From Prauserella isguenensis (lineage in GTDB: Bacteria > Actinomycetota > Actinomycetes > Mycobacteriales > Pseudonocardiaceae), in NCBI RefSeq assembly GCF_014191605.1, contig NZ_JACHWU010000004.1, positions 124,001 through 188,000 on the forward strand: DNA of 64,000 nucleotides. The letters run 5' to 3'. Positions 27,566 to 32,632 of this stretch are shown one piece after another. The position numbers were made by a program, and so were the translations under genes. The stretch's first letter is position 1. The number at the start of each line of letters is the position of its first letter. The notes under the pieces were generated by a model. That model ran no database searches. It was not told where the DNA came from and saw nothing but the letters and a program-made list of their open reading frames with translations.

Positions 27566-27748
27566 TCGCTCGGCTGTGGCGCGACCGGTCCTGCCGGCGG
27601 CGATCGCCGGGCCGGGCGGTGGTCCTTCAGTGAGGCGTCGACGGCACTCGGGCATGCGGGCTGAGCCACGGCGAGGCTTTGTCCACGCATTGTTCACGGC
27701 TCCCCGTATGAGCCCGGGGTTCGCCGGGGCCCGCCGGGTGGCATGCGA

Positions 27749-27786
27749 ACGGCCCGTGACTGGCATTTCTGCTGGTCACGGGCCGT
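27749..27786 (-). terminator. Original tRNA-Arg terminator hairpin, outside the integrated element
   Basis: Perfect 12-bp inverted repeat ACGGCCCGTGAC / GTCACGGGCCGT. Bases 27762-27788 recur exactly at 32526-32552, where the 5' arm has diverged to ACGGCCCG only. Read leftwards it would have ended the tRNA-Arg transcript before the element inserted. Confidence 0.6.
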
Positions 27787-27803
27787 TTTCGCGCGTCTTC
27801 GAT

Positions 27804-27850
27804 GGGCGCCCTCGGCAGGATTCGAACCTGCGACACCTGCCTCCGGAGGG
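27804..27850 (-). repeat. Left attachment-site repeat (3' fragment of tRNA-Arg)
   Basis: Identical over 47 bases to 32557-32603. It contains the anticodon loop, T arm and acceptor 3' strand of tRNA-Arg(CCG) in leftward orientation, then departs from tRNA sequence at 27851 (aactcatcc), so it is not a functional tRNA. Confidence 0.9.
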
Positions 27851-27942
27851 AACTCATCCGGCGTGTCACCGGTTTTTACGTGGGGTTTTGTTGTCAGTGG
27901 TCTCGCACCACGGCCTTCTGGAGCCGCTGTTGCCATCAGTTC

Positions 27943-27963
27943 GCACCACGACCCGCACCACGC
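27943..27963 (+). repeat. Candidate integrase arm-type site, left
   Basis: Two GCACCAC copies seven bases apart, plus a lone GCACCAC at 27905-27911. The 21-base unit differs by a single base from that at 32469-32489. Both lie inside the element about 70-95 bases from the core repeats, as integrase arm sites do. Confidence 0.5.
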
Positions 27964-28103
27964 AAGGCTTGGTTGCCGTGCCGATGTAGCGCCTCGTGGG
28001 AGCTCGTCTCCGCGACTCAACGTCGTAGCTCAAAGGTGGGGCTGGGCGCGCTGGCGCGGCCGTACTCGGGTCGGCCATGTGTCACGTTCAGCCAGACGCC
28101 GCG

Positions 28104-28673
28104 CTAGTTTCCGGAACGCAGCTCAAGTCCCGCAGACCTCGCGAGGCTGGCCGCAGCCTCAACCTTCCAGTAGTTGCTCGCCGTGCTGGCCTTGTAACCG
28201 GAGCCGGCGAGGATGGTGACGATCGTGTCGTCGGGGCTGAGCTGGCCGTCGCGAGCGAACTGCTCGACGGCGGGTACCACCTGTGCGCTGGTGGGTTCCG
28301 TGTAGAGGCCCGTCTTGGCCAGCTCGAGGGTCGCCGGGCGCAGCTTCTCCTCGGGCACAGCGCTCATCGCGCCTGCGCTGTCGCGGACCGCGCGCAGTAC
28401 CTCGCGGTCGCGGACCGGACGCGCGATGGAGGTTCCCTCGGCGACCGTCGGCCGCCGTTCGGCGAATTCGACTGCATCCGCGCCCGAGGCGAAGGCCTGC
28501 ACCAGTGGGCTGCAGTGCTCGGGCTGGGCGACCAGCAAGCGCGGAAGGCGCGTGATTTCCCCGGCCCGGTGCAACTCGGCGAAGTCGGTGGCGCAACCGA
28601 GCACGAGGCTGCCGGCACCGGCCGAGATGACCACGGCGGTCGGAGCTTCGAAGCCCAGGTCTTCCCAGATCTA
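28104..28673 (-). pseudogene. C-terminal fragment of a fold-type II PLP enzyme (threonine-synthase-like)
   Basis: The reading from about 28673 to the stop at 28104 gives some 190 residues: EDLGFEAPTAVVISAGAGSLVLG, later EGTSIARPVRD and VTILAGSGYKAS, which match the C-terminal half of threonine-synthase/cysteate-synthase-like PLP enzymes. The catalytic Lys and N-terminal half are missing; a stop codon precedes it and the upstream DNA switches to transposase-like sequence at about 28671. It is therefore a truncated, non-functional remnant within the integrated element. Confidence 0.7.
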
Positions 28674-28764
28674 GGATGCGAAAGCGGCGCTCGTCCTTGG
28701 GCAACAGAGGCTCGATCCGTTCCCGCAGCTCGTCCTCGACCTCCCACGGCCTGCGCTGGGCCAC
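28671..28764 (-). pseudogene. Fragment of an IS5-type transposase N-terminus
   Basis: From a GTG at 28764 the translation begins VAQRRPWEVEDELRERIEPL and continues to RRFRIL, close to the first 30 residues of IS5-family (DUF4096) transposases. It ends at the junction with the PLP-enzyme fragment; nothing else of the transposase is present. Confidence 0.65.
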
Positions 28765-28951
28765 ACCAACCTCCTGCCAGCTGATCAACAACCAGCAAGA
28801 TCGAACCACATGCACAAGATCATTCTGTTAGGATTTCTTAAGGGAAAATCAGGTTGTACGATGTCGGCCTGCATCGTCGGATTCGGCGTATGCGTTCGTG
28901 GCCATGGCGACGCGATCACCATTGTCCAATCTGGCCTGCTAGCCTGCCGCC

Positions 28952-30028
28952 ATGAGGGACAGTCAACTCACGAATTCCTACGACAGTCGGCGCATCTCGG
29001 GCGGGTCTCACAACGTACGGATCGATGAGCTTGACGTCCTCCGTGGATTCGCGCTGTGCGGCATCCTGGTCGTCAACATCTACCAACAAGTGGTCTTCGC
29101 CGAGGCGTATCGGCCGGCCGACATGCCGTTGGGTGTGCAGTTGCTGTTCTACGAACGGTTCCTACCGATCTTCGCCGTCCTGTTCGGAGTAGGGTTCGGT
29201 ATCTTCTTCGCCCGAGCGGCGGCTCGTACCGACCGACCGAGATTGGTGCTGGCGCGCCGCCTCTTGGTGCTTTTCGTGATGGGCGCGGTGCACTTCGCGT
29301 TCCACCCCGGTGAGGTACTGACCGCCTACGGCGCCCTCGGACTCGTGGTTCTGTTGCCGATGAGCTACCTGCGAGGGCGTACGGCGCTGGTCGTCGCGAT
29401 TGTGCTGCTCTTCCTCGGATCCCAGCTCATCCTCGGCTACGGACCGATACCCGGCCTGCTGACACTCGGGTACGCCCTGGCGATGCTCGGCGCACCCGAG
29501 GCCCTTGCCGCCCGAACGGGCCGGATAGCCGTCGGATTCGGGGTTTTCGGGTGCCTGGCAGGACTCTACGCATACCTCGATCTGACGGGCGTGGACCTGC
29601 CGTACGTCAACCTCATCGGCGGCCCGGGAGGCGGCGTGGATCTCTTGCCCGTCGCTGCGGCGATCGCCACCGCGTTGGCGTACTGCTGCGGCCTTCTCCT
29701 GTTGCTCCGCACCCCTGCCGCCGCCGCCATCACCGCGGTGTTCGCACCCATGGGCAGAATGGCCCTGACTAACTACCTGACCCAGACGGCCCTGTTCCTC
29801 CTGATCAGCCCGCTACTCGGGATCGACGACGGCGCCGACGTCACGCAGATTGTCGGCCTCACGGTCACGATCCTGATCGTGCAGGCCGTGTGGAGCACAC
29901 TGTGGCTGCGCTCCTTCCGGTACGGACCGGCCGAATGGCTCTGGCGGCGCCTGACGTGGTGGCAGAGCACCCCGCTTCGCCGCACACACCAACACGCCGT
30001 GCCACCCGCCCAACAAGCCGATTCTTGA
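28952..30028 (+). CDS. DUF418 domain-containing membrane protein
   Basis: 358 residues from ATG 28952. The N-terminus RIDELDVLRGFALCGILVVN is the classic DUF418/YeiB opening, followed by about nine membrane helices, FGVGFGIFF and the C-terminal DUF418 region (GRMALTNYLTQTALF ... YGPAEWLWRRLTWW). The family is thought to act in transport or acyl transfer but has no firm function. It is the only intact non-transposase gene in the integrated element, so it may be passenger cargo. Confidence 0.85.
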   Translation: MRDSQLTNSYDSRRISGGSHNVRIDELDVLRGFALCGILVVNIYQQVVFAEAYRPADMPLGVQLLFYERFLPIFAVLFGVGFGIFFARAAARTDRPRLVLARRLLVLFVMGAVHFAFHPGEVLTAYGALGLVVLLPMSYLRGRTALVVAIVLLFLGSQLILGYGPIPGLLTLGYALAMLGAPEALAARTGRIAVGFGVFGCLAGLYAYLDLTGVDLPYVNLIGGPGGGVDLLPVAAAIATALAYCCGLLLLLRTPAAAAITAVFAPMGRMALTNYLTQTALFLLISPLLGIDDGADVTQIVGLTVTILIVQAVWSTLWLRSFRYGPAEWLWRRLTWWQSTPLRRTHQHAVPPAQQADS

Positions 30029-30332
30029 GGACCGTCGCCAACGCAACGCTCGGCCGCATAACCCTTGCCTGCCGAGCAACGATCCCCGCAGACGGCGAAC
30101 GACATGGCAACCTTGACGATGACCCGCCGCGGCCCGCGAGGCATCGCCTCGCCCGGGAGCGACGTCCCCGTCGCGCCCAGGGCAGAGTAAGCGCCGGCTA
30201 CGTTCGTGGCCGCTCGAGGATCACACCCACCTCGATCATCTGCCCCCCCGCACCGAAGCTCGGAACTACCGTACCCACGGTTTCCCATCCCCTAGCTGGC
30301 CAGGAAGTGCCGGCCCGGCGTACGTCTGGATC
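30029..30332. other. Gap between DUF418 gene and IS3 element
   Basis: About 300 bases with no recognisable gene. A short minus-strand open reading (ending ERPRT, 30207-30332) looks weakly coding but is interrupted at the IS end and matches nothing I know. The missing C-terminal part of the integrase is not here, so the IS insertion was accompanied by loss or rearrangement of the flank. Confidence 0.45.
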
Positions 30333-30362
30333 GGAGCTGCTGCAGGAAATTGTGACAGTGGT

Positions 30363-31223
30363 TTAGGCCGCCTGGCTGGCGGTGTGGCTCATGATGGTTT
30401 CGTACTCGGTGGGGGTCAAGCGGCCGAGGCGGGTTTGGCGTCGGCGGCGGTGGTATGTGCGTTCGATCCAGGTGACGATCGCGATCCGGAGCTCTTCCCG
30501 GGTGGCCCACCTGCGGCGGTCGAGCACATTGCGTTGCAGGAGACTGAAGAAGCTCTCCATTGCGGCGTTGTCACCGGCTGAGCCGACCTGGCCCATTGAG
30601 CCGCGCATGTGGTGGCGCCACAACGCTTGCTGCAACTTCTTGCTGCGAAACTGACCTCCGCGATCGCTGTGCGGCGTGCAGCCGGCAACGTGCCGATCGC
30701 GTCGGGCGGCGGCCGATTCCAACGCGTCGAGGGCGAGTTGGGACGTCATCCGGTCGGCGATGGAGTAGCCCACGACGCGGTTCGACCACGTGTCCTTGAC
30801 CGCGCACAGGTATACCTTGCCCTCGCCGGCGGGATGTTCCGAGATGTCGGATAACCACAGCTGGTTTGGTTTGGTGGCGGTGAACTCGCGACGCACCAGA
30901 TCCTCGTGCGCCGGCGCGGCGGGCCGCGCCTTGCGGGGACGGTGTTTCGTGCCGAACACGCACCACCACTCGTTGTCCGAGCAGATCTTCCACACCGTGC
31001 GCTCTGACACCGTGTACCCGGTGGCGGTGATCTCGTCGTGCAACAAGCGGTAGCCGAACTCGGGATCCTCACGGTGGGCCTCGAACAGCGCGTTCGCCAG
31101 GTAGGCCTCGTCGAGTTCGGCGTCGGTGACCGACTGGGCGAGCCAGGCATAGTAGTGCTGGCGATGGAGCTTCAACACCCGGCACGCCACCGCCACCCGA
31201 ATCCGGGCGTCAGGGGCGGCCAA
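30363..31223 (-). CDS. IS3-family transposase OrfB (integrase catalytic domain)
   Basis: 286 residues as an isolated frame. After an HTH_21-type region (YLANALFEAHREDPEFGYRL) comes the rve core with an intact DDE triad: Asp in QLWLSDISEH, Asp in PHSDRGGQF, Glu in DNAAMESFFSLLQ. It has no good start of its own; it is expected to be made as an OrfAB fusion by -1 frameshifting at 31247-31253, which would add the segment beginning KRLYPFVREL. Confidence 0.92.
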   Translation of the reverse strand: MAAPDARIRVAVACRVLKLHRQHYYAWLAQSVTDAELDEAYLANALFEAHREDPEFGYRLLHDEITATGYTVSERTVWKICSDNEWWCVFGTKHRPRKARPAAPAHEDLVRREFTATKPNQLWLSDISEHPAGEGKVYLCAVKDTWSNRVVGYSIADRMTSQLALDALESAAARRDRHVAGCTPHSDRGGQFRSKKLQQALWRHHMRGSMGQVGSAGDNAAMESFFSLLQRNVLDRRRWATREELRIAIVTWIERTYHRRRRQTRLGRLTPTEYETIMSHTASQAA

Positions 31224-31228
31224 CTCCC

Positions 31229-31537
31229 TTACGAACGGGTAGAGCCTTTTCCCGGCAGATTGGCCTGCGACAGATACGCCGCAGCCCGGCGCAACACCTC
31301 GTTCTCCTGCTCCAACAGCCGATTCTGCCGCTTGAGCTCCCGCAACTCAGCCGCCGCGCCGGAGGACAGATCCGGCTTGGTGCTGGCCTCGACATCGGCC
31401 GCGCGCAGCCACTTCTGCAACGTCATCGGATGAACACCGAAGTCGCTGGCGACCTGCTCGATCGTCACACCAGGCTCGCGGTTACGCACGACCCGGACCA
31501 CGTCCTCACGGAACTCACGGGGATACGGCTTCGGCAC
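31229..31537 (-). CDS. IS3-family transposase OrfA (HTH_Tnp_1)
   Basis: 102 residues from ATG 31537. The N-terminal helix-turn-helix is KPYPREFREDVVRVVRNREPG then TIEQVASDFGVHPMTLQKWL; a Leu-zipper-like helix follows (ELRELKRQNRLLEQENEVLR). It binds the IS ends and alone usually represses transposition. The slippery G GGA AAA near its end allows the frame change into OrfB. Confidence 0.92.
   Translation of the reverse strand: MPKPYPREFREDVVRVVRNREPGVTIEQVASDFGVHPMTLQKWLRAADVEASTKPDLSSGAAAELRELKRQNRLLEQENEVLRRAAAYLSQANLPGKGSTRS
31247..31253 (-). promoter_or_regulatory. Programmed -1 frameshift heptamer in the IS3 transposase
   Basis: On the minus strand the OrfA frame reads CCG GGA AAA GGC, containing the canonical slippery heptamer G GGA AAA. 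A -1 slip enters the frame GGG AAA AGG CTC TAC, which runs open into OrfB. Confidence 0.65.
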
Positions 31538-31605
31538 AGTGGCATCCTTCCGCGCCCACCTCTCGGCAAGCGAACTCAGATGTCACAGAACCCTGCAGCA
31601 GCCCC

Positions 31606-32447
31606 GTGGGTCTTCGTGTCCTTCTCCCACGTGTGCCCGTTTTCTTGGGCGATGCTGGTGCGGACGGCCATGCTCGCGTTGTCGAGATCGAGATAGTCCC
31701 AACGCAGCGCGCAGAGTTCGCCTCGACGCGCTCCCGTTGTCATCGCGACCCACACGAGCATTCCCCACGGCAGGTCCTTGAACGCTTCATTGATGATCGC
31801 GGTCGCCTGCTCGAGCGTCGGTGGGTGTGGATTGGACGGCGGTCGTTTCGGGGGCTGCGCCTGTTCGAGCGGGTTGACCGTAATCCACTGCCACCGGATG
31901 GCGGCCTTCATCGCGCCGCTGAGGCAAGTGTGGATCTTGCGAATCGACGCAGGTGCGAGCGGCTTGCAGGTGTGCGGTCGGCATGACGCATCGCAGGTGT
32001 GAGGCCCGTCAGTCGTGTGTTCGACGAACGGCTTCCCGCCGCAGTGATCGCGGCACGTTCGGAGAGTCCGGTAGAAGGAGTCCAGGACCTCGCCGTTCAG
32101 ACGCGCCAGCGGTGTGACCCCGAGCAACGGCTTGATATGGGTGTGTCGATCGCGATGCGATAGCGCGTCCGCGTGCTCTGGTCGACGTCCACGTACTCGA
32201 GGTATCGGTCCATCAGCTGGCCGACTGTCGCGTTGGTCCGAGGGTTCCGGCTTTCGTTGACCTCGTTGACCAGACGCGTCAGGACCTTCTGGGCTTCCTT
32301 GTCCGCCTTTGGCCCAGCGGGAACGGTTTCACGGAGGTAGTGACGCTTCCCACTGAGTGGGTCGATGCCGGCGTAGACCTTCACCCGCAGTGCGCCACTG
32401 CTGAGTTGCTCGATCGAGCCCCGGGAGCGCCCCTCACGCTGCTTCAT
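31606..32447 (-). pseudogene. Tyrosine-type site-specific integrase, broken
   Basis: The reading starts MKQREGRSRGSIEQL at 32447 with an N-terminal AP2-like arm-binding and SAM-like core-binding domain. The frame breaks near 32139-32141, where a CCC run appears to have lost one base; the other frame continues HIKPLLGVTPLARLNG. It keeps catalytic Arg I in TTGARRGELCALRW but stops after KDTKTH where the IS3 element begins, so the His-x-x-Arg and catalytic Tyr are gone. It lies next to the intact tRNA, as expected for the integrase of this element. Two separate lesions make it inactive. Confidence 0.88.
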
Positions 32448-32468
32448 GGTGCGAGAGTAACGCGACTC

Positions 32469-32489
32469 GCACCACAACCCGCACCACGC
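32469..32489 (+). repeat. Candidate integrase arm-type site, right
   Basis: Pair of GCACCAC motifs seven bases apart, one mismatch from the unit at 27943-27963, located between the integrase start and the tRNA repeat. Confidence 0.5.
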
Positions 32490-32559
32490 GAATCCGGTCG
32501 CGATCATGAAAAACGGCCCGCGTCCGGCATTTCTGCTGGTCACGGGCCGTTTGATCGGG

Positions 32560-32632
32560 CGCCCTCGGCAGGATTCGAACCTGCGACACCTGCCTCCGGA
32601 GGGCAGTGCTCTATCCACTGAGCTACGAGGGC
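32560..32632 (-). tRNA. tRNA-Arg (CCG anticodon)
   Basis: Complete 73-base cloverleaf read leftwards. Acceptor GCCCTCG pairs with CGAGGGC, the D arm contains AGCTC...GAGC, the anticodon stem CTGCC/GGCAG encloses loop CTCCGGA with anticodon CCG, and the T loop is GTTCGAATC. The discriminator is G and no CCA is encoded. Its 3' half is the attachment site of the integrated element to the left, which restored the gene on insertion. Confidence 0.95.

Follow-up and report, generated by a model that had tools for sequence, protein, structure and literature searches.

An apparent integrative-element relic at tRNA-Arg(CCG) of Prauserella isguenensis, and the terminator-like hairpin that it brought

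What has doubled the 3' part of a transfer RNA (tRNA) gene in the chromosome of Prauserella isguenensis, and what did the DNA that now separates the two copies once belong to? The question concerns positions 27,804 to 32,632 of a 64,000-nucleotide stretch, here called the window (positions 124,001 to 188,000 of contig NZ_JACHWU010000004.1, assembly GCF_014191605.1), from a 4.95-Mb genome in 15 contigs. We hold it to be very nearly certain that the 4.8-kb stretch represents the remains of an integrative element inserted at the 3' part of tRNA-Arg(CCG) by means of its own tyrosine integrase. The initial annotation had read the locus as a case of tRNA-targeted integration; an attachment (att) repeat, an integrase remnant, empty sites in two relatives (G005 and G006), and a left arm common to P. 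rugosa and a further relative (G001) bear it out. Absent from that annotation were a terminator-like hairpin copy, doubled motifs, an IS3-family element and a truncated pyridoxal phosphate (PLP) enzyme gene, all described below.

The target, tRNA-Arg(CCG), lies at 32558..32632 on the minus strand and is the sole tRNA called in the window by ARAGORN; its 3' part is element-supplied. The att repeat runs for 47 bp, from the anticodon loop to the tRNA 3' end, and is present as a tRNA-side copy at 32557..32603 and a distal copy at 27804..27850, the latter being the displaced original 3' part. The two are direct repeats, identical throughout as the initial annotation had it, and 4,753 bp apart. At up to three mismatches the repeat matches the window twice, and in none of 100 dinucleotide-preserving shuffles; its first 38 bp occur at just these two sites in the genome, at up to two mismatches.

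Relatives supply the uninterrupted arrangement. Seven genomes of the genus, this one included, were compared, and when the window flanks are joined across the stretch they align across the junction without a break, at 85.4% over 481 bases with G005 and 79.4% over 500 with G006, the alignments extending back to 27669 and 27650 of the window, respectively. The sequence that directly follows the tRNA in these two genomes is thus the outer flank of the distal att copy, and the empty sites that the initial annotation had proposed looking for do exist. G001 aligns to the joined flanks as far as the hairpin only. In all, 12 of 16 loci span the junction, two of them repeating G005 and G006. G002 and G003 also span it and are not counted as empty, because they have a second att copy and native-like tRNA-side sequence; five loci from other genera match the tRNA, or the tRNA and hairpin, alone, and so are uninformative about the flank. 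No second att copy is found in the stretch around the tRNA in G006, and the interior of the element has no match, at E values up to 1e-4, in the tRNA stretches of G001, G005 and G006 (14–16 kb each). No relative lacking the element yet carrying the same fragments turned up when we looked for one; among the interior genes, DUF418 alone was seen to have a close copy elsewhere in the genus, a broken one in G005, on another contig. Two candidate second sites in G001 were set aside: a 32-bp inverted match of 87.5%, about 270 bp from the tRNA (L075 3745-3776), was not counted, and a site on C66 (L076/L118) looks by eye like the left boundary of a different element and bears a fragment resembling tRNA-Arg(CCT).

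The integrase remnant lies at the tRNA end (31606..32447, minus strand) and comprises the first 281 of 516 codons, interrupted by a 2-nucleotide frameshift near codon 101; the remainder, including most of the catalytic domain, is gone. The Pfam match of the remaining piece to Phage_integrase is below the curated cut-off (E 0.00098). Aligned with the open gene that P. rugosa NRRL B-2295 has at this tRNA, it is identical at 804 of 840 bases (95.7%), with the one 2-nucleotide frameshift. That intact protein matches Phage_integrase over residues 224–388 (65.5 bits, cut-off 27.1), ends in a GntR helix-turn-helix, and is followed 2.6 kb behind by an excisionase-type gene. The initial annotation's broken integrase is therefore real, and an element of the same family whose integrase is intact does sit at the same tRNA in a relative. 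Between the two species, identity is lower at three chromosomal genes—84.9% (cation efflux), 86.7% (argS) and 87.9% (acetyl-CoA hydrolase)—and the higher identity of the integrase fits a separate arrival of the element.

The break in the integrase coincides with an IS3-family insertion sequence (IS) of 1,273 bp (30333..31605), with imperfect terminal inverted repeats, whose ends were set by comparison with a second genomic copy that is 87% identical. Its orfA occupies 31229..31537 and its orfB, the transposase with an rve integrase core, 30363..31223 (NF033516, 254.2 bits, cut-off 160), both on the minus strand. IS3-family elements make short target duplications of 3–4 bp. CTA flanks the other genomic copy at both ends; the window copy has no duplication, being flanked by ATC at one end and GTG at the opposite one. 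Because the missing 3' part of the integrase gene begins exactly at the IS end, an IS-adjacent deletion or IS–IS recombination is likely, and the mismatch between the two IS flanks points the same way.

Each end of the element also carries a doubled motif, CGCACCACnnCYCGCACCACG, at 32468..32488 (right) and 27942..27962 (left). The motifs are co-oriented and lie some 70–110 bp inside the two att repeats; at up to two mismatches they are the only two matches in the window, one per end, against 0.01 expected. From their position we take them to be presumed arm sites, at which the arm domain of the integrase would bind. Between the distal att copy and the interior lies the left attP arm (27851..27963, 113 bp), which also adjoins an att copy both in P. 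rugosa (C11; 99 of 113 bases alike) and in G001 (C66); 27963 is where the matching ceases for all three. A further doubled motif in the same genome as the window, at L113 7891-7911 (G000 C4:311890-311910), about 300 bp downstream of tRNA-Arg(TCT), is perhaps the trace of another element.

These features suggest the following history. Site-specific recombination by the element's tyrosine integrase, between attP and the 3' part of tRNA-Arg(CCG), would have brought the element into the chromosome; the original tRNA 3' part and its hairpin now lie 4.75 kb away, followed by the sequence that in relatives comes right after the tRNA. An IS3 copy would then have landed in the integrase gene, and an IS-adjacent deletion or IS–IS recombination would have removed the 3' end of that gene together with whatever lay beyond. 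The relic is presumably unable to excise alone; a related integrase acting in trans, or recombination between its repeats of 92–103 bp, could still remove it.

Several observations weigh against this reading and belong beside it. G005 has a 29-bp piece of the att sequence about 4 kb from its tRNA, and so may have been visited before, which leaves G006 as the cleaner empty site. The acetyl-CoA hydrolase gene on the left of the element is not near the tRNA in the stretches from G005 or G006, and the empty-site match therefore ends at about 27650–27669. The left arm is 87.6% identical to that of P. rugosa, no higher than the chromosome, and adds nothing to the argument for separate arrival. The deletion step is one that we infer. 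Finally, the comparison of composition proposed with the initial annotation gave values slightly lower inside than outside, and the contrast is weak: GC content is 0.60–0.70 inside versus 0.63–0.72 outside, and GC at third codon positions is 0.79–0.85 inside versus 0.88–0.89 for two neighbouring genes. GC content and codon use were accordingly rejected as proof of foreignness.

The exact repeat is not the whole of what was duplicated. In the direction of the tRNA, both att copies are followed by a hairpin, so that the true repeat is longer than 47 bp and includes it. The element-borne, terminator-like hairpin (32512..32552, minus strand) stands directly after the tRNA, ends in a T run and folds at -28.7 kcal/mol; the displaced native hairpin (27748..27788, minus strand) lies beyond the distal att copy, and the two are identical at 38 of 41 bases. 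The 19-base core of the hairpin is found at only these two genome sites at 0–1 mismatches, and at one further site at three. A homologous hairpin occurs 3' of the tRNA in G001, G005 and G006; that on the tRNA side of the window equals the G005 hairpin over 41 bases, and its short spacer is that of G006. Native copies have no T run. The element, then, replaced both the 3' part of the tRNA and the hairpin, and because its end brings a replacement from the anticodon loop onward as well as a replacement terminator-like hairpin, the tRNA unit is whole. This makes it a clear case of an element that replaces a tRNA's terminator-like hairpin in addition to its 3' end. For fis-inserted elements, PMC10111431 already describes an att identity block that can run into a terminator, and the principle is thus not new.

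Where the replacement came from is a matter for more tentative comment. Conceivably, and we put this at somewhat under an even chance, the element carries the tRNA 3' part together with a copy of the terminator of tRNA-Arg(CCG) itself, derived from a Prauserella host, and end-to-end recombination in the integrated copy could update the patch. If so, the repair patch would be kept matched to the host, and the tRNA unit, along with the integrase just beyond it, would stay properly insulated. Terminator copying as a general rule of the integrase family found no support. In 10 of 24 related loci folded between tRNA and integrase (L043, L044, L056-L058, L060-L063 and L066), a long hairpin gives the strongest fold and begins no more than 10 bases from the tRNA; that of L052 begins as close, and is weak, and shorter hairpins can be seen by eye in several others. 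Only three of these 24 loci possess a second att copy and so allow comparison with a displaced hairpin: the tRNA-side and displaced hairpins are unlike in L044 and L057, and L049 lacks a hairpin of this kind.

The same tRNA gene appears to have served as a landing site in Prauserella more than once. Four of the seven genomes (G000, G002, G003 and G004) possess a further att copy of 45 bp or more, which in G002 and G003 is on a contig other than the tRNA's; the one 29-bp piece in G005 can be added to these. A second, different type of hairpin follows an att copy on the tRNA side in G003 (L068 5853-6049), on the distal side in G002 (L074 261-457), and at the 29-bp piece in G005 (L071 7061-7253), the copies of G002 and G005 being 84–87% alike to that of G003; its occurrence in these three genomes hints at an older element at the same tRNA-Arg(CCG).

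A scan of genome contigs with the first 97 residues of the integrase returned a family of 25 loci. At 24 of them a tRNA in the same direction ends 85–161 bp before the integrase match—eight Thr(CGT), six Arg(CCT), five Met, three Arg(TCT) and two Arg(CCG)—and the remaining one, L046, starts 174 bases from a contig end. The doubled motif, at up to three mismatches, stands between tRNA and integrase in 11 of the 25 (just before the integrase in L046); it is exact in P. rugosa only, and has two or three mismatches in the others that possess it. In G005, a protein encoded 2.3 kb from a doubled-motif copy is FtsK-like (PF01580, 25.1 bits, cut-off 24), and used as a query it matches 11 of the 25 loci within stretches of up to 10 kb, eight at 70–77% identity and three at 28–37%; neither the window nor P. 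rugosa (L043) is among them. Plasmid and phage records (53 and 159 matched, respectively) gave distant integrases only, with less than 60% identity and less than 80% coverage in all. Two family members have contents that may be recorded here. The Micromonospora sp. BL4 locus at tRNA-Met (L049 4986-10776), with att copies about 7.4 kb apart, encodes an AAA ATPase that PADLOC matches best to AriA (5.4e-25), adjoined by a second gene and a 998-aa protein, neither with a PADLOC match; this is possibly PARIS-like defence cargo, the ATPase alone being matched. The Amycolatopsis deserti locus (L044 9809-15250) is a complete-looking element of about 5.4 kb at tRNA-Arg(CCG), with its integrase split over two frames and a cargo that includes three genes without a PADLOC match.

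Inside the window element the DUF418 gene reported in the initial annotation is confirmed, YeiB-like and open for 358 aa (28952..30028, plus strand; DUF418 E 5.6e-30, with an NCBIfam YeiB match below the curated cut-off). A close homologue exists in only one other of the seven genomes, G005, at 79% aa identity, and over 344 aligned codons' worth of bases the differences fall 50, 26 and 113 by codon position, a pattern as under protein constraint; the G005 copy is broken by two stops and gaps. That copy (L112 6982-8354, on G005 C3) lies inside an extra segment of about 1.4 kb. Beside the window's DUF418 gene is the 3' part of a threonine-synthase-like PLP enzyme gene (28104..28672, minus strand), and the stretches 27964-28103, 28673-28951 and 30029-30332 (140–304 bp) have no gene assignment. 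At about 28690-28780 (minus strand) a peptide resembles the start of an IS5-type transposase; it had no Pfam or NCBIfam match, the open reading frame around it had none in Pfam, and it is left unassigned. No Rep or Prim-pol gene was found among seven interior open reading frames or pieces searched with Pfam, four of them also with NCBIfam; the TraB-like query that matched the 11 related loci found no FtsK/TraB gene in the window at E values up to 1e-4; and xis was likewise not detected in the element.

What, then, was the element before it decayed, and might it not have been an element at all? That a fragment of the tRNA was simply duplicated with a segment of chromosome, no integrase taking part, is a reading we consider extremely improbable: nothing beyond the bare repeat speaks for it, and it is contradicted by the integrase gene, by the doubled motifs at both ends, by a left arm common to two other genomes, and by relatives without the insertion. 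The size of the ancestor is harder to judge. The initial annotation was right to call the element decayed, the integrase being broken, but its statement that the cargo is nearly gone presupposes a larger ancestor. Instead, the unit may always have been small—a non-conjugative element of about 5–6 kb, whose integrase was accompanied by a handful of cargo genes, DUF418 and the PLP enzyme among them, and which lost only the 3' end of its integrase and gained an IS3—and we regard this as a serious possibility, albeit one we do not quite favour. Three of the 24 tRNA-linked family loci have a second att copy nearby, at about 3.7 kb (L057), 5.4 kb (L044) and 7.4 kb (L049), and in L044 and L049 a second doubled motif lies just inside it. 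Yet the other 21 have no second att copy in the stretches examined, 11 of the 25 have the FtsK/TraB-like gene within 10 kb, and the missing IS target duplication means that some DNA, though not necessarily much, was lost.

Nor need the present cargo be original. We find it almost evenly balanced, tilting slightly to the negative, whether the DUF418 gene and the PLP fragment are later arrivals in an element already dead. The one close DUF418 homologue is at an unrelated spot, and its neighbours adjoin without DUF418 in G000, G003, G004 and G006 (in G001 and G002 one side only was matched); for the PLP fragment the genus offers no close homologue, and 57% identity (G010) is the highest among 60 genomes. 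No repeat or IS end was observed, however, that would mark these genes as having entered separately.

Comparison with known systems places the relic as follows. Among known kinds it stands nearest to the actinomycete integrative and conjugative elements (AICEs), because 24 of the 25 related integrases adjoin a tRNA and 11 of the 25 are accompanied by an FtsK/TraB-like gene. Like AICEs of the pSAM2, pSE211 and SLP1 types, the window element has a tyrosine integrase that adjoins the tRNA-side att, and is inserted at a tRNA 3' end, and FtsK/TraB-like genes lie near some relatives of its integrase, the likeness being judged by features. Unlike them, it has a broken integrase and no detected rep, tra or xis. 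The family is tied to AICE-type elements; the relic itself, with neither rep nor tra detected, we do not claim as an AICE. Also close is the P. rugosa element (L043/G002), which shares the tRNA, a similar hairpin, the same doubled motif, and, at a distal att copy on another contig, the same left arm; its integrase is open, in contrast, and different genes stand behind it. That its ends belong to one element we only infer, since they are on separate contigs, C22 and C11. The helper-embedded satellites of the phage-inducible chromosomal island (PICI) type (PMC10111431) likewise flank the crossover on either side with a doubled motif in one orientation, and have att identity beyond the core, which at fis can extend into a terminator. 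They differ in integrase clade, hosts, motif and target, and are likened here for architecture alone. The P. isguenensis element belongs, as a dead member, to a well-known kind, and its replacement of a terminator is neat rather than unprecedented. The repeated use of the landing site and the replaced terminator leave our knowledge of such elements unchanged, the terminator being a small addition to it, and a testable one.

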